A stretch of DNA of 64,000 bases, from contig BQMY01000084.1 of NCBI GenBank assembly GCA_022181065.1, positions 1-64,000 on the forward strand, read 5' to 3'. Shown here one piece after another: positions 14,268 through 20,005 of the stretch. The notes under the pieces are model-generated. The model saw nothing but the letters and a program-made list of their open reading frames with translations. It searched no databases and was not told the origin of the DNA. The stretch comes from Melioribacteraceae bacterium (GTDB lineage Bacteria; Bacteroidota; Ignavibacteria; Ignavibacteriales; Melioribacteraceae). A program made the translations under genes and the position numbers. Every line of letters begins with the position of its first letter. Position 1 is the stretch's first letter.

Positions 14268-15927
14268 GATATTTCTGATTGTATTATTGTTTTCCTTTTC
14301 GCTTTTTGGTCAATTGGCTCATGAAACAAGAGCGGTATGGGTTGCAACAAATTTTGGTCTTGATTTCCCTCATGGGATTCGTGACGCTGAATCGCAGAAG
14401 ATTCTTCTAAGGAGGATTTTCAAGGACATTAAAGAGAAAAACTACAATACTGTTTATTTTCAGGTAAGGGCGAATGGTACAACTTTCTTTAATTCCGAAT
14501 ATGAGCCATACAGCGCGGAATTAACAGGAAGAACCGGTTCTATTCCTGCATATGATCCTGCTCAACTCTCAATTGATCTGGCGCGTGAATTTGGTCTCGA
14601 AATACACGCATGGGTAAATACATTCCGATGTTTCTCGGGAAATGACAGGGAACCTCTACTCGATAAAAAACATCCGGTTACCGCCAGAGAGGATTTGGTA
14701 GTGCCATTTTACGAAGGGGAAACTCTGGCATACTGGATGGATCCGGGAAATCCTGATACACACACTTATCTGGTTGAATTATTCAGCGATCTCACAACGA
14801 AATATAATTTTGATGGTCTGCAACTTGATTTTATACGTTATCCGGGTAAATCATTTAATGATGGAACAACCTTTAGCCGCTACGGAGAGAGGAGAGATAA
14901 AGCTGAATGGCGAAGAGATAATATAACCCGCTTTATAAAATCTTTGTCGCAAAAAGTTAAATTGCAAAATCCGTATTTGAAGCTAGGTACTACTCCTATT
15001 GGAATTTATAAAAATCCGCCTGGTGTGTATGGTTTTGAGGCTTTCAATGATGTATATCAGGATGTTGAATCGTGGATCAATAATGGTATAATTGATTATG
15101 TTATTCCGCAGATATATTGGGATATCAATAGTAACCCAAGATTTGAGGTGATCGCAAAAGATTGGCTCAAAATGAAGGGGAATGTCCAGATTATACTGGG
15201 AATTGGCGCCTACAAACCGGAAGTAAAAAGCGAAATTACAAGTCAGATCGCTATCAGCAGGAAACTTGGTGCTGAGGGAATCGCAATGTTCAGGTACAGA
15301 AATATTTCCGATATAAACCTGTTTTCAGATCCCGCATTACCTGCGACTTATAATACTATCGCTATTGAGCCATTACCTCTACCCTTCAATCTTTCCGCAG
15401 GTGCTGACAAATTGATGAACAATAATCTCAAATTGAGTTGGCAATATGACAGTGAGAATGAACAAAAATTAAAATACTTTGTGCTATATGAAGTTCAGGA
15501 TGGTGTCCCATTACTCCTTAAGTTAGTTGATCCTGCCGATAGAGCATCTTATCTCATCTCTGCCCGTAAGGTAAAGGAAGTTGGATACTACACCGTAGGA
15601 ACAGTCGATTTGAACTGGAATGAAAACTATGACGCCTCAAATCTAATCAGAGTTGAAAACAAACTACTCAAAAATCTTTTGGGGAAAATAGGGAACTCAG
15701 AGACACCTTTATTACAAAAACGGGATAATAATTTTCTTTTGAATCTTTATTCAGAAGGGGATGAACGGCTGGATATAAGCATTAAAACACAAAGCGCCAA
15801 TGCAACCACATACAATATTAAACTGAAGAAAGGCTTGAACCTGATAACACTCCCACTCGTGGAAGGTGCGCAAGAGATGAAACTTGATTTTATTGAGAGG
15901 AAGCAAAAAAGAAGTTTAAGGTTATAA
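14257..15927 (+). CDS. GHL10-type (DUF187) secreted glycoside hydrolase-like protein
   Basis: About 557 residues. Residues 1-19 form a signal peptide ending FG before QLAHE. The core (about 20-370) is the GHL10/DUF187 TIM barrel: ETRAVWVATN at the N-terminus, NTVYFQVRANGTTFFNS, EIHAWVNTFR and the FDGLQLDFIRYPG strand, whose D-F-I-R-Y is diagnostic. Relatives act on bacterial cell-wall or exopolysaccharide glycans, though the reaction is established for few. The last 190 residues look like a beta-sandwich (NLKLSWQYDSENEQKLKYFVLYEV), perhaps fibronectin-like. ATG 14257 is preferred to the TTG six bases upstream because it opens directly on the signal peptide. It overlaps the aroB end. Confidence 0.85.
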   Translation: MKNRIFLIVLLFSFSLFGQLAHETRAVWVATNFGLDFPHGIRDAESQKILLRRIFKDIKEKNYNTVYFQVRANGTTFFNSEYEPYSAELTGRTGSIPAYDPAQLSIDLAREFGLEIHAWVNTFRCFSGNDREPLLDKKHPVTAREDLVVPFYEGETLAYWMDPGNPDTHTYLVELFSDLTTKYNFDGLQLDFIRYPGKSFNDGTTFSRYGERRDKAEWRRDNITRFIKSLSQKVKLQNPYLKLGTTPIGIYKNPPGVYGFEAFNDVYQDVESWINNGIIDYVIPQIYWDINSNPRFEVIAKDWLKMKGNVQIILGIGAYKPEVKSEITSQIAISRKLGAEGIAMFRYRNISDINLFSDPALPATYNTIAIEPLPLPFNLSAGADKLMNNNLKLSWQYDSENEQKLKYFVLYEVQDGVPLLLKLVDPADRASYLISARKVKEVGYYTVGTVDLNWNENYDASNLIRVENKLLKNLLGKIGNSETPLLQKRDNNFLLNLYSEGDERLDISIKTQSANATTYNIKLKKGLNLITLPLVEGAQEMKLDFIERKQKRSLRL

Positions 15928-15928
15928 C

Positions 15929-15966
15929 AAAGGGATTGAAATTAACTCTCAATCCCTTCAAATTTT
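15929..15966. terminator. Terminator between convergent genes
   Basis: AAGGGATTGA ending at 15939 pairs with TCAATCCCTT (15949-15958) around a 9-base loop, followed by AATTTTT on plus. It directly follows the glycoside hydrolase stop and may also serve the minus-strand dehydrogenase. Confidence 0.75.
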
Positions 15967-15973
15967 TAGCGGT

Positions 15974-17137
15974 CTAGTGAAATTTTTCCGTGATTTTAAT
16001 ACCACGTTTTTCAATCTCCATTTTAATATCTCTTCCGGGCACAGCGTTTTCAACGGATACAGCACCTTTTCTAACTTTTCCTTTATTAGCGAGTATCGCG
16101 ATCATTGAGGCATGCCATCCGGTAAGTCTCTGCATTGCGGTAAAACCGGTCTTCGGATCGTAGTAGTCAATCAGTTCAAGTTCATATCTCGAATCTCTGC
16201 CATTTTTAATACCTTCCGCGAATATCCGGATGATACCAATATCTTTTGTGGTATCAGATGTGATCTGGTCTTCAATTAATTTATGGTAAAATTCTCTGGG
16301 GGAGATAACACAATTGCCCACTTCAATTTTTTTTGTATCAAACAATCCCAGATCGGAGAAAGCCTTAAATTGCTGCCAGTGACCGGGGTATCTTAACGTT
16401 TTATTTTCGAGTGTTTTCAGTTTACCTTTTAGTGTGTATGGAAGTGTTGATAGACCTCCGGAAGTTACCGCTGCTTCAAGTTGACCGAGAGAATCAGGAA
16501 AATCGATAGTTTCAAGTTCTGATAAGCAGGGTATTTCCTCCACTTCACCATCTCTCAGGAAAAGGGCATTCCCGAAGTATTCATTTGTGAGTCCGTTAAT
16601 ATGAAAAGTAAGTTCAAAATTCCATGGTGGTTTGGGGAATTGAGTCAGACCAGCACCATAAGATTTAATACTAACCGGAGAATCGAAAATATCGGCTATA
16701 TACATGATGAGGGAGATATTGAGACCGGGATCCATCCCGCAATCGGGAATGATTGAAATGTTTGCCTCAAGAGCGGATTCATCAAGATTGAGTTGTTCTT
16801 TTACCACGTCGGTATTGCCGCCAAAATCAACGAAATTCGCGCCGACTTTGATAGCAAGTTCAGTTAGATAATGATTGTAATAATAAGGTACACCGCTTAC
16901 AATCGCGTCAACATCTTTTAGAAGATGTTCGAGCGCCTCGGCATCATTTATATTAAGAGTAACGCCTTTGCAGATATCTTTTCCGGTGAGATTCCCAAGT
17001 TTTTCCAATGCCTTGTCTATCGCATCCTGTCGGGAATCAATCAGTAATATTTTTTCTGCCTCACCGAACATTATGAAATCATAAGCCGAGGCAGTACCTT
17101 GTCTTCCGGCACCAATAACAGCATATTTATAGCTCAT
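15974..17137 (-). CDS. Saccharopine dehydrogenase-family enzyme, L-lysine 6-dehydrogenase-like
   Basis: 387 residues. The N-terminal Rossmann motif is VIGAGRQGTASAYDF, with LLIDSR ending strand 2. The middle has the substrate-domain signatures IIPDCGMDPGLNI and TSGGLSTLPYTLKGK followed by LRYPGHW, and the C-terminus ends AVPGRDIKMEIEKRGIKI. This closely follows the pattern I know for lysine 6-dehydrogenase, which oxidatively deaminates the epsilon-amino group of lysine, and for related saccharopine/carboxynorspermidine reductases. The nearby OsmC and KamA-like genes are on the same strand but separated by terminators. The substrate is inferred from family resemblance only. Confidence 0.75.
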   Translation of the reverse strand: MSYKYAVIGAGRQGTASAYDFIMFGEAEKILLIDSRQDAIDKALEKLGNLTGKDICKGVTLNINDAEALEHLLKDVDAIVSGVPYYYNHYLTELAIKVGANFVDFGGNTDVVKEQLNLDESALEANISIIPDCGMDPGLNISLIMYIADIFDSPVSIKSYGAGLTQFPKPPWNFELTFHINGLTNEYFGNALFLRDGEVEEIPCLSELETIDFPDSLGQLEAAVTSGGLSTLPYTLKGKLKTLENKTLRYPGHWQQFKAFSDLGLFDTKKIEVGNCVISPREFYHKLIEDQITSDTTKDIGIIRIFAEGIKNGRDSRYELELIDYYDPKTGFTAMQRLTGWHASMIAILANKGKVRKGAVSVENAVPGRDIKMEIEKRGIKITEKFH

Positions 17138-17203
17138 AAGAACCTCATCAGATAGTTATGTTCAAGATAGCATTTCCAAGAATCAATAAATACTATTTAA
17201 ACT

Positions 17204-17237
17204 AAAAAAGGCGGAATCGTAATAAACAATTCCGCCT
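17204..17237 (-). terminator. Terminator of the OsmC-family gene
   Basis: AGGCGGAAT (17210-17218) pairs with ATTCCGCCT (17229-17237). On the minus strand the stem is followed by a T tract (AAAAAA on plus at about 17204-17209). It separates osmC from the dehydrogenase downstream. Confidence 0.82.
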
Positions 17238-17256
17238 GATTTCAAATAATGTACTG

Positions 17257-17685
17257 TTAATCTTTATTAACTATTTTGAATGAATGAGTAATTTCCATTA
17301 CTTTTTCGAACATGGCAGTAACTCCGCAGTATTTAGTCTGTGATAGTTCTATAGCTCTTTCAACATCTTTTTCCTTGATACCCCTTCCGTGAAATACATA
17401 CTCTACATGCATCTTTGTATAAACTTTCGGATGATCATCTGTCGATTCAGCCGAGATATTCATCTCAAAATTATCAACTTCAACTCTTTTCTTCTGCAGA
17501 ATGGAAGCAACGTCGCTACCTGTGCAGCCACCCAGTGAAAGTAGTAATAATTCTTTAGGTCGAATCGCGGCGTTACTCCCGCCGAAGTTTTCGGGACCAT
17601 CCATCATAACCCAATGATTTGAATCTGTTTTTCCTGAAAAAGTTAATCCTTGTAATTGTTTTATATAGGCGGTTGATTTTCCCAT
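17257..17685 (-). CDS. OsmC/Ohr-family thiol peroxidase-like protein
   Basis: 142 residues from the chosen start. The two redox cysteines of the family are present: C54 in LGGCTGSDV and C120 in KYCGVTAMF. The R-P-K-E-L-L-L segment before C54 is typical. OsmC/Ohr proteins reduce organic hydroperoxides; this one resembles the YhfA-like OsmC branch, where the role is less certain. An in-frame ATG lies four codons upstream (17697), but GGAG then sits 6 bases before ATG 17685, so the shorter form is preferred. It is a single-gene transcript with a terminator after it. Confidence 0.85.
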   Translation of the reverse strand: MGKSTAYIKQLQGLTFSGKTDSNHWVMMDGPENFGGSNAAIRPKELLLLSLGGCTGSDVASILQKKRVEVDNFEMNISAESTDDHPKVYTKMHVEYVFHGRGIKEKDVERAIELSQTKYCGVTAMFEKVMEITHSFKIVNKD

Positions 17686-17770
17686 TGTGTTCTCCATTTT
17701 TTTCGTATAAGATTCAAAAAGAAAATAAAAGATTCTTTTTTAGTTACAAAATAGAAGGAAGAGCTAATTG

Positions 17771-17807
17771 CAGGTTTTAAAACAAAAAAAGCCGGAAAAA
17801 CCGGCTT
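17771..17807. repeat. Copy A of a 37-bp direct repeat containing a terminator hairpin
   Basis: Thirty-seven bases identical to 18010-18046. The core is AAGCCGG/CCGGCTT with a 5-base loop. On the minus strand the hairpin is followed by a T tract, so it has terminator form. A related ACTGTTGA follows both copies after a few differing bases. Copy A serves no obvious gene of its own. Confidence 0.85.
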
Positions 17808-18009
17808 CAGACTGTTGACAAAGTCATTTCGTTCAAAAGTCCTCCAACGCCTGAGGCGCACAGGTTTGAAGGAGGTGGATTCCGACGAATGTCGGAAGAC
17901 GGAGGATGATTTATTGCATTTTTTGTGACTTTTGGTCATCCCCCATCACAAAATCCGCCTGTGGCGGAGTGATCTCCCCCTTCGAAAGGGGGACTTGAAA
18001 ATAAACAAC
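17808..18009. repeat. Hairpin-rich intergenic element between the two repeat copies
   Basis: Two hundred bases, richer in G and C than their surroundings, with five short palindromes: CGCC-TGA-GGCG (17848-17858), TCCGAC-GAAT-GTCGGA (17881-17896), TGAC/GTCA (17926-17938), TCCGCC-TGT-GGCGGA (17954-17968, extended by ATCAC/GTGAT) and CCCCCTT-CGA-AAGGGGG (17976-17992). No convincing gene is present. It looks like a dispersed non-coding repeat or a remnant of a small mobile element. Confidence 0.55.
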
Positions 18010-18046
18010 CAGGTTTTAAAACAAAAAAAGCCGGAAAAACCGGCTT
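18010..18046 (-). terminator. Copy B of the 37-bp repeat, terminator of the KamA-like gene
   Basis: Identical in 37 bases to 17771-17807. It sits 56 bases past the KamA-like stop codon on the minus strand. AAGCCGG/CCGGCTT followed by a T tract gives a normal Rho-independent terminator. Confidence 0.82.
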
Positions 18047-18102
18047 TTAAACTGTTGAAAATGGTAAAATCTATTCTCACGAAATTTAAGAAATCCTCTT
18101 GA

Positions 18103-19467
18103 TTAAGCAGCACCAAATGAAGAGACTTTTTTGAATTCCTCCTCTTTTGCCGCCACCATAGCATCGAGTTCATCCTGGAAGAAAAATCTTTTCTGTCCGA
18201 AAGCAGGTTTAAGATGGTGCAGCCATGTCGCTTTTTCATCATATTTTGCGAAAAAGGGTCTTTTAACCCAATCAGGATTTCTTGCCTGAAGGAAATTAAG
18301 CACAAATGCCTTTTCACCATGGATTTCTGTTATACCTTCTATTGCTACTTTACCGGGCATAGCGGACATGGAAGGACCTCTGACAGTTCTGCCAAGACCG
18401 GAAATCTGCGTGAAAGCTTTTCTAAAAATATCATAAGCCTCTGCAAGAGGTATGGCAAAATATTCTACCGCGCCTGTATCGCGTTCAACAAAGAAATAAT
18501 AGGGGATAGCACCCAGTTTAACCTGTTCTTTCCACATTGTTGCCCATACATCCGGGTCATCATTGATATGTTTGATCAGAGGCGATTGAGTACGTATCTC
18601 AGCACCGGTATTTCTGATATTTCTCACAGCTTCCCTGGCAACATTGGTCGTTAATTCAACCCAATGGTTATAATGACCCATTATTGCAAGATGTTTTCCT
18701 GCCGCAACAACTCTTTCAAATAAATGTAATATGTCTGTTGCGTCTTTATCGGTGACATATTTATAAGGCCAGTATGAAACAGATTTGGTGCCAATTCTTA
18801 TATTACGTATATGTTCAAATTCGGGGGAAAGCAGCGGTTCGATATAAGCCTTTAATTTTTCGTAGGTCATGATCATAGGATCACCACCTGTAAAAAGTAC
18901 ATCGGTTATTTCTTTATGCTGACTAAGATATTTCTGGAATCTTTTCGATTCGTCTGTGGCGAATTTGATATCATTCATCCCAACGAATTGTGCCCAGCGG
19001 AAACAGAATGTACAATATGCATGGCACGTTTGACCTGCAGAAGGAAATACCAGGCAAGTTTCTTTGTATTTATGCTGAACTCCACGAACAGGTTCATCTT
19101 CATCTTCGAGGAAGGGAACATTTGCTGTTAACTGTCCGGCCGGATGCGGATTTAATTCTAATCTGATCTCATTCGCAAGATTTTTTATCTGCTCTTGCGG
19201 AGCATCATTTCTGACAAGATCTGCCATTTTATTGAAATGTTCATCCTTTAACATTCCTTTTTGCATAAAAGTAAGCTGGTACATCGGGTCATCAGGAATG
19301 TTATTCCAATCTATCAATTCGTCCACAACGTAATTATTCGTTCTGAAAGGAAGAACATTGGCAACCACTTTTGTGGCAAAAATTTCTTCCTGAGAAACAT
19401 GATGAGCGTTCAAAACCTCTTCAAGATTCTTCAACCCATAAAATCGCATTTTTTTAGGTTTTATCAT
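18103..19467 (-). CDS. KamA-family radical SAM, PLP-dependent amino acid 2,3-aminomutase (substrate uncertain)
   Basis: 454 residues from ATG 19467, chosen over an upstream TTG because GGGA lies 8 bases before it. The radical SAM cluster is C148, C152, C155 in TCHAYCTFC. GGDPM follows at 194-198 for SAM binding, and the probable PLP lysine is K373 in MPGKV. Family members move an alpha-amino group to C3. By eye, the two aspartates that hold the lysine side chain in clostridial lysine 2,3-aminomutase align with R329 and S366, and the VVDAPGGGGK motif is replaced by RGPSMSAMPGK. Lysine is therefore doubtful. Glutamate 2,3-aminomutases are known to have a basic residue at the first site. No acetyltransferase (ablB) is adjacent. 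A terminator follows. Confidence 0.82.
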   Translation of the reverse strand: MIKPKKMRFYGLKNLEEVLNAHHVSQEEIFATKVVANVLPFRTNNYVVDELIDWNNIPDDPMYQLTFMQKGMLKDEHFNKMADLVRNDAPQEQIKNLANEIRLELNPHPAGQLTANVPFLEDEDEPVRGVQHKYKETCLVFPSAGQTCHAYCTFCFRWAQFVGMNDIKFATDESKRFQKYLSQHKEITDVLFTGGDPMIMTYEKLKAYIEPLLSPEFEHIRNIRIGTKSVSYWPYKYVTDKDATDILHLFERVVAAGKHLAIMGHYNHWVELTTNVAREAVRNIRNTGAEIRTQSPLIKHINDDPDVWATMWKEQVKLGAIPYYFFVERDTGAVEYFAIPLAEAYDIFRKAFTQISGLGRTVRGPSMSAMPGKVAIEGITEIHGEKAFVLNFLQARNPDWVKRPFFAKYDEKATWLHHLKPAFGQKRFFFQDELDAMVAAKEEEFKKVSSFGAA

Positions 19468-19648
19468 GCTACTTTCCCTTTCTCTAAATTGCAAAAATCA
19501 GGTACTTCGCCGCTGGCTAGCCGTGTAGCCGGAGAAATAGTAAACGCCTTCTTCTGAGGACTTTTTAGGGATGAGGTGTTACAATAGTTAAAATAGAAAA
19601 AAACAAATTATTATCAAGTAATAAGAAAATTTAGTTCTTTTGATAGGT

Positions 19649-19671
19649 AAAGCGGTAGAACCTACCGCTTT
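19649..19671. terminator. Hairpin between the 53-residue gene and the KamA-like gene
   Basis: AAAGCGGTAG (19649-19658) pairs with CTACCGCTTT (19662-19671) around a 3-base loop. It directly follows the small gene stop on the minus strand; the T tract is better on plus, so function as a minus-strand terminator is likely but not certain. Confidence 0.65.
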
Positions 19672-19833
19672 TTATTTTAAGGTAGTAACTTTACTCACGT
19701 CGTCAAGTTTTACAAATTTTTCGTTAAACTTATAACTGCCTTTTTCTGATTTCACAGTCTTTACAAATTTAACACTTACGAAAGCTGGTTTACCTTTTTT
19801 CGCTTTGTCAGCAAACGTTTGTTGTTTAGCCAT
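19672..19833 (-). CDS. Small basic conserved-looking protein, 53 residues
   Basis: Reads MAKQQTFADKAKKG at the N-terminus and continues with FVKTVKSEKGSYKF and KFVKLDDVSKV, stopping at TAA 19672-19674. GGAG lies 8 bases upstream of the ATG and a hairpin follows at once, so this has full gene form despite its length. It is strongly basic with no Cys. The pattern VK-x-VKS-x-KG-x-Y-x-F resembles the small DUF4295-type proteins found with ribosomal protein genes in Bacteroidota, but the resemblance is weak and the neighbours here are different. Function unknown; an RNA- or ribosome-associated protein is one possibility. Confidence 0.7.
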   Translation of the reverse strand: MAKQQTFADKAKKGKPAFVSVKFVKTVKSEKGSYKFNEKFVKLDDVSKVTTLK

Positions 19834-19908
19834 TATCAATCTCCATTTTTTACAGCACGGAAATATATGAAAATTACCATAAAAATAAAAGAGTTCCCGG
19901 GCAAAAGT

Positions 19909-19937
19909 TTGTAAAAATATTCCCCCATTTAAATTTA
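19909..19937 (+). promoter_or_regulatory. Candidate promoter of the PspC-LiaF pair
   Basis: TTG (19909-19911), 18 bases, then TAAATTTA (19930-19937), one mismatch from TAnnTTTG. It is about 70 bases before the pspC-like start codon. Confidence 0.35.
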
Positions 19938-20005
19938 CTTCAACCTCTTAAAACATTGAAGCCAATCGCGCGTCTAAAAAATTGAATCGAATATGGAGGA
20001 TAGTT

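Follow-up and report, generated by a model that had tools for sequence, protein, structure and literature searches.

A KamA-type aminomutase clade with arginine at a lysine-binding aspartate position: candidate glutamate 2,3-aminomutases outside the clostridial eam model

The described systems closest to the gene analyzed here are 2,3-aminomutases. In lysine 2,3-aminomutase (LAM) from C. subterminale (PDB ID 2a5h; TIGR03820), we take D293, D330, R134, and K337 to be residues with roles at the active site, D293 and D330 being the ligands of the lysine epsilon-ammonium group. The arginine 2,3-aminomutase BlsG (TIGR04468) is a further relative with the KamA fold. The clostridial glutamate 2,3-aminomutase Eam (TIGR04368) is said to have been described by Ruzicka and Frey in 2007 as carrying a lysine at the place of LAM D293, and IdnL4 from the incednine cluster is a putative glutamate 2,3-aminomutase. 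The reaction, the eam idea, and the proposal of IdnL4 as a glutamate aminomutase are already known.

The window, a 64,000-nucleotide stretch of contig BQMY01000084.1 from a Melioribacteraceae bacterium, holds one KamA-type gene, whose product is called P0001 here. The gene lies on the minus strand, a detail absent from the sequence-only reading of this DNA. Its features and nearest surroundings are as follows.

18103..19467, minus strand: gene for a KamA-type radical SAM/PLP aminomutase of 454 aa (P0001), predicted L-glutamate 2,3-aminomutase
19003..19026, minus strand: CX3CX2C codons, C148 to C155, the [4Fe-4S]/SAM site (113/113 members; opposite C125/C129/C132 of 2a5h)
18481..18483, minus strand: Arg329 codon, at the place of LAM Asp293 (three alignments; Arg in 113/113)
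18379..18390, minus strand: Arg360 to Arg363 codons, both Arg invariant (113/113 each), just before the PLP-lysine loop
18370..18372, minus strand: Ser366 codon, at the place of LAM Asp330; variable (S102/V10/L1)
18349..18351, minus strand: Lys373 codon, predicted PLP Schiff-base lysine (LAM Lys337; 113/113, motif alignment)
18026..18048, minus strand: terminator-like hairpin directly 3' of the aminomutase gene
19672..19839, minus strand: 55-codon ORF between the aminomutase and a PspC-like gene, on the aminomutase strand

The aminomutase is probably a single-gene unit, because the hairpin lies directly downstream and the nearest upstream ORF of at least 35 aa on the same strand, at 19672-19839, is about 200 bases away. 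The transcript probably ends at the hairpin at 18026-18048; the region 15900-20000 has 9 terminator-like sites versus 3.2 expected in shuffles. The window offers no operon support for the gene. A perfect 37-nt direct repeat (17771-17807 and 18010-18046, 239 nt apart) carries the terminator-like hairpin, and the stretch that it flanks may be an intergenic repeat.

Downstream of the aminomutase, after osmC, a saccharopine-dehydrogenase-like protein (PF16653, PF03435) is encoded on the minus strand at 15974-17137. This protein and OsmC were considered as partners and rejected, since none of the seven window neighbors checked in 15 neighborhoods of relatives recurs beside the aminomutase, except osmC in one; three other window neighbors have weak similarities in two of these 15 loci. 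Rfam at the gathering threshold gave no match, riboswitches included, in the window and six relatives' loci; a sodium or c-di-AMP riboswitch is reported for ablA/eam in the part of PMC9337991 that was available.

Active-site residues, predicted fold, and family

P0001 lies below the cut-offs of the curated models, with 130.4 bits for TIGR00238 (KamA; E 7e-38, cut-off 199.2), 114.9 for TIGR03820 (lysine 2,3-aminomutase; 525.4), 111.2 for an AblA-like model (396.25), 96.5 for TIGR04468 (arginine 2,3-aminomutase; 600), 94 for the EpmB model (369.3), 92.5 for the glutamate 2,3-aminomutase equivalog TIGR04368 (650), and 23.2 for Pfam PF04055 (29.5). The only PDB sequence match at E 0.001 is 2a5h. 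The AlphaFold2 model of P0001 (70 sequences; mean pLDDT 91.5, pTM 0.90) also has 2a5h as its first match among solved structures (VIA Z 33.4, rmsd 3.2, 332 aligned residues), followed by RlmN with a Z of 13.4. The match covers model residues 1-433 and 2a5h residues 14-406, with 20% identity in the structural alignment, and Foldseek likewise puts 2a5h first (E 2.7e-17; next entry 4e-5). The invariant cysteines of the CX3CX2C motif and the barrel, as seen in the 2a5h match, place P0001 in the radical SAM superfamily, and the full-length fold is LAM-like with a PLP lysine, Lys373, placed by motif alignment only. The geometry of the active-site side chains in P0001 is inferred, and the comparison model of a LAM-like paralogue (pLDDT 60.7) is too poor for a side-by-side view.

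P0001 has in common with LAM the fold, the CX3CX2C motif, the PLP lysine by motif, R134 (R157 in P0001), and Y113 (Y134). It differs at the two lysine-binding aspartates and in the replacement of R112/R116 by Lys133/Thr137. Arg329 stands opposite Asp293 of 2a5h in a phmmer alignment with the printed rows counted. A PDB profile search gives the same pairing, as does a profile-profile alignment made with ten LAM, ArgAM, and KamA sequences, and none of the three restores an aspartate there. Ser366 aligns with Asp330, and Lys373 with the PLP lysine of the references, in MAFFT alignments and by the K-minus-7 spacing; the HMM-based alignments end before both residues, and their placement is by motif and MAFFT alignment. 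At the place of the VVDAPGGGGK loop, P0001 reads RGPSMSAMPGK, as the sequence-only reading gave it together with the residue numbers.

The traits of the clade were checked in 113 members, P0001 and 112 other usable ones, after 6 of 118 loci had been dropped for a stop in the read. C148, C152, C155, R157, R329, R360, R363, K373, and K133 are invariant (113/113). The CX3CX2C site is intact and the predicted PLP lysine present, in agreement with the first reading. The columns of LAM R112 and R116 hold K in 113 and T in 109 of the 113 members. Position 366 is S in 102, V in 10, and L in 1. Some members are near-copies; thinning at 82% identity leaves 78, in which the Arg and Lys columns are still invariant (78/78) and position 366 is S in 67, V in 10, and L in 1. 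The initial claim that both LAM aspartates are replaced thus stands for Arg329, and for P0001 itself at Ser366 by motif alignment, whereas the second replacement is variable and the conserved basic residues nearby are Arg360 and Arg363. Since position 366 varies, the conserved change, as read from the alignments, consists of a single Asp-to-Arg replacement and two further arginines. The clade signature is an RDTG-type loop with Arg329, and RTxRGPxMS..GK.

All of the LAM, ArgAM, KamA, and EpmB-like references (15/15) have Asp in the D293 column. Arginine 2,3-aminomutase has also lost D330 and, unlike P0001, keeps the aspartate at the D293 site (2/2). Arginine at this site is also found in four distant relatives, namely two rhizobial, one Paenibacillus, and one paralogue from the family of the window's organism. 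A 531-aa paralogue (locus L043, 7145-8740), 32% identical to P0001, has arginine at the D293 site with a different PLP loop and is perhaps a further subfamily. Two distant Arg-bearing KamA-type genes lie in ectoine-related surroundings, one beside ectB and aspartate-semialdehyde dehydrogenase genes on a Sinorhizobium meliloti plasmid and one near an ectoine synthase gene on a Rhizobium etli plasmid. Both loci hold genes annotated as biotin carboxylase subunits and perhaps serve an unknown diaminobutyrate-derived metabolite.

Near full-length relatives of at least 46% identity occur in 31 of the 296 phylum genomes sampled, the window's own included, with partial or split matches in four more. 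The family of the window's organism has relatives in 11 of its 16 listed genomes, and further members lie on plasmid records of Actinobacteria and Burkholderiales. A scan of named genomes gave at least 578 pattern-matched relatives, of which the best 80 were kept. In the first alignment, the identity of members to the window protein lies in the range 46-74%. In a tree of 64 rows, made by a quick method with no bootstrap and with long branches flagged, all Arg-bearing rows fall on one side of a branch (SH-aLRT 99), and the EpmB-like sequences fall on the opposite side. Because the arginine is invariant in the family and a single branch holds all Arg-bearing rows, the change from Asp to Arg looks like a single ancient event and not the result of drift in one genome. 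By sequence and predicted structure, P0001 belongs to a distinct, Arg-bearing clade of aminomutases with the KamA fold.

The ten other subfamily-bearing genomes listed in the family all have a second KamA-type match of 29-35% identity (10/10). The window's genome differs from these in having the Arg-type gene as its one clear KamA-type gene, the other match being weak (20.7 bits). Four LAM-like copies from the phylum whose sequence was read keep both aspartates.

Clostridial Eam resembles P0001 in having a basic residue in place of D293 and in the same proposed reaction. LAM-type sequences reach 502 bits on the Eam model TIGR04368, against 92.5 for P0001, so Eam looks nearer to LAM, as judged from model scores with a tree that holds no Eam sequence, and the P0001 clade would be a separate origin. 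Neither the 296 phylum genomes nor the two clostridial plasmid records and six relatives' genomes searched gave an Eam match over the cut-off.

Gene contexts in other lineages and the candidate substrate

Gene contexts in two other lineages point to L-glutamate, and we consider it probable that P0001 is a glutamate 2,3-aminomutase that the clostridial eam model does not cover. All of the evidence on the substrate is gene context in other lineages. The first reading held that the product may be a beta-amino acid other than beta-lysine and saw a resemblance to glutamate 2,3-aminomutases, which now gains indirect support from the invariant charge reversal and these two contexts.

The first context is actinobacterial. 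The Streptomyces NBC_00334 member (locus L036) is 49% identical to the window protein and is flanked on both sides by polyketide synthase genes. The locus also has an adjacent gene of aminotransferase fold, an adenylation enzyme, and an amide hydrolase whose annotation is proline iminopeptidase. The best PDB match of the hydrolase is 3wmr (481 bits), which we take to be VinJ. The adenylation enzyme matches 5jjq best, with 619 bits, followed by 7dq5 (580), like entries (574-580), and 5jjp (572); in the available part of PMC11253843, 5JJQ is IdnL1 with (3S)-3-aminobutyrate, 7DQ5 is HitB, and 5JJP is CmiS6. An IdnL1-like adenylation enzyme, an aminotransferase-like gene, an amide hydrolase, and a polyketide synthase are parts of an incednine-type cluster. 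According to the accessible text of PMC11284099, feeding in incednine biosynthesis showed a path from L-Glu to beta-Glu to 3-aminobutyrate with decarboxylation of beta-Glu by IdnL3, and IdnL4 is the presumed aminomutase, its involvement being confirmed by idnL4 disruption and its expected activity not being observed in vitro. By analogy with L036, which stands in the same type of cluster, IdnL4 would belong to the Arg-bearing subfamily.

Among nine plasmid loci from Actinobacteria and Burkholderiales, a close IdnL1-type adenylation gene is found in one, an aminotransferase-like gene in two, and the whole gene set in L036 only. The adjacent aminotransferase-like gene of Amycolatopsis AA4 (locus L034) is 49% identical. 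The aminotransferase at locus L039 was rejected as a homologue of that at L036, with no match at E 1e-10. S. clavuligerus and NBC_00868, the two looked at, have the aminotransferase-like gene with no annotated aminomutase within 6 kb. On these gene contexts, one or more actinobacterial members appear to feed beta-glutamate into a macrolactam starter-unit pathway. IdnL4 supplies secondary metabolism; the window gene, by contrast, is a stand-alone gene, and no partner gene is common to the neighborhoods of its relatives. Position 366 is Val in L036 and in 4 of the other 5 actinobacterial rows and Ser in the window protein, so the step from L036 to P0001 carries risk.

In a cluster on a Rhodococcus plasmid (locus L038, 11941-18798), a subfamily member is accompanied by cupin, MupA-like, SidA-like, class I tRNA-ligase-like, and saccharopine-dehydrogenase-like genes, the saccharopine-dehydrogenase resemblance being 23%. 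This cluster is reminiscent of hydrazine-forming pathways.

The second context was observed for Halomonas and Billgrantia alone. Of the 80 best loci, 12, all from these two genera, have genes for a TAXI binding protein, a fused TRAP permease, and a Usp protein downstream of the aminomutase and in the same orientation; a 13th locus from these genera (L082) is too short to tell. The TRAP and Usp families were named for locus L097, and the binding protein was compared in L097 only, where it scores 382.7 bits against 8s4j, with 9ibo level at 382.5. In the accessible portion of its source, 8S4J is described as the glutamate-specific VcGluP, with Y45, S75, Q93, E125, Y200, and M201 as mutated residues. 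The L097 binding protein keeps five of these six, M201 being replaced by Val, as judged by eye from the printed alignment. The L097 permease carries DUF3394, as VcGluQM does in the part of the description available.

In the proposed reaction, SAM would be cleaved by the reduced cluster, the 5'-deoxyadenosyl radical would abstract a beta-carbon hydrogen of the PLP-glutamate aldimine, and the amino group would migrate as in LAM. Arg329, helped by Arg360 or Arg363, would hold the gamma-carboxylate where LAM holds the lysine epsilon-ammonium. With LAM R112/R116 replaced by Lys133/Thr137, the extra arginines might instead hold the PLP phosphate. The most likely use of the resulting beta-glutamate would be as a compatible solute in the window's organism.

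Beta-glutamate, salt, and alternative explanations

Beta-glutamate is described, in the available part of PMC1224877, as a known osmolyte of methanogens, seen in a few bacteria; early NMR work is said there to have ruled out a glutamate aminomutase route in methanogens, and another pathway was proposed. In Nitrosopumilus maritimus, it is given as the most abundant identified metabolite, at 730 mM, and, in two ocean profiles, deep water holds more of it than surface water (PMC8269262, in the portion available). Within the accessible parts of the literature searched, we did not find the enzyme that makes beta-glutamate in other producers stated. The same search, which reached few subscription papers, gave no activity or metabolite evidence for the clade.

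Among the best 80 of at least 578 named relatives, 20 are Marinobacter and 13 are Halomonas or Billgrantia by title; among the rest are Ectothiorhodospira, Nitrosomonas marina, Marinospirillum, Guyparkeria, and Trichodesmium, and also Trinickia, Methylocaldum, and numerous metagenome bins. The ranking is by similarity, and habitats are not sampled evenly in it. Of 274 Gammaproteobacteria sampled, 30 have a member at E <1e-140, a 31st, weaker match being left out, and 39 have an ectoine synthase over the cut-off, one of them a fragment. Nine genomes have both genes. Ectoine synthase is thus present in 9/30 member-bearing genomes and 30/244 others (odds ratio 3.1, Fisher p 0.022), in a test that ignores kinship and includes the centre genome, which was chosen for having the aminomutase; the remaining 21 of the 30 have no ectoine synthase. 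This association gives weak support to a salt link. The osmolyte role suggested at the outset is circumstantial, with 33 of the best 80 named relatives falling in two halophilic genus groups alongside the weak ectoine link, and beta-glutamate from P0001 perhaps serves as an osmolyte in the window's organism.

It is a serious possibility, if short of a likely one, that beta-glutamate is made for a purpose other than osmoprotection, such as storage, the cell wall, or a secondary metabolite, an explanation that overlaps with ours and differs from it on purpose. The lack of a known RNA family match in the window, riboswitches included, the lack of an evident salt-linked neighbor, and the members in Trinickia, Methylocaldum, and various metagenome bins fit such a purpose, whereas the many halophilic genera among the nearest named relatives (best 80 of at least 578) and the standing of beta-glutamate as a known osmolyte (PMC1224877, available part) favor osmoprotection.

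It seems unlikely to us that the enzyme acts on a different acidic or polar amino acid, for example 2-aminoadipate or a carboxylated intermediate, or that the substrate changes with the lineage. The Rhodococcus cluster, with its SidA-like, class I tRNA-ligase-like, cupin, and saccharopine-dehydrogenase-like genes, is not an obvious glutamate pathway, and position 366 varies, with Val in 5 of 6 actinobacterial rows; however, R157, R329, R360, R363, and K133 are invariant across 113 members, which cover 46-74% identity in the first alignment, and the two informative contexts point to glutamate.

We regard it as very improbable that the clade is no longer a free-amino-acid 2,3-aminomutase and instead acts on a residue bound in protein or RNA, like EpmB on EF-P, or performs other radical chemistry. 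This would suit a stand-alone gene with no conserved partner in the neighborhoods of 15 relatives and the in vitro result for IdnL4, but a starter unit that is a free beta-amino acid requires idnL4 (both from PMC11284099, accessible text), and the EpmB-like sequences lie on the other side of the tree. Least probable is a lysine 2,3-aminomutase that still makes beta-lysine with a rebuilt side-chain site, which has in its favor the sole PDB sequence match, 2a5h, and the best score among the three substrate-specific free-amino-acid models, and against it the charge reversal at D293, the distance of that score from its cut-off, and the second, LAM-like copy held by many subfamily-bearing phylum genomes, including all ten others in the window's family.

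Returning to glutamate as the substrate of P0001, a broader proposal can be put forward tentatively, as one that may hold for the whole clade. The clade would be the beta-glutamate synthase of bacteria in general, another glutamate 2,3-aminomutase besides clostridial eam, with a separate origin through an old Asp-to-Arg switch. It would provide halophilic and marine bacteria with an as yet unassigned osmolyte, contribute to the beta-glutamate of the sea, and have been recruited in Actinobacteria for macrolactam starter units. In a literature search that reached few subscription papers, we found no statement that a glutamate role fits a single widespread clade, rich in halophiles, with a signature of its own and a place outside the curated models; an earlier description of the clade in such a role may exist. 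The finding is relevant to genes that currently carry the annotation "lysine 2,3-aminomutase", and the clear signature makes the beta-glutamate question directly testable in culturable Marinobacter and Halomonas.
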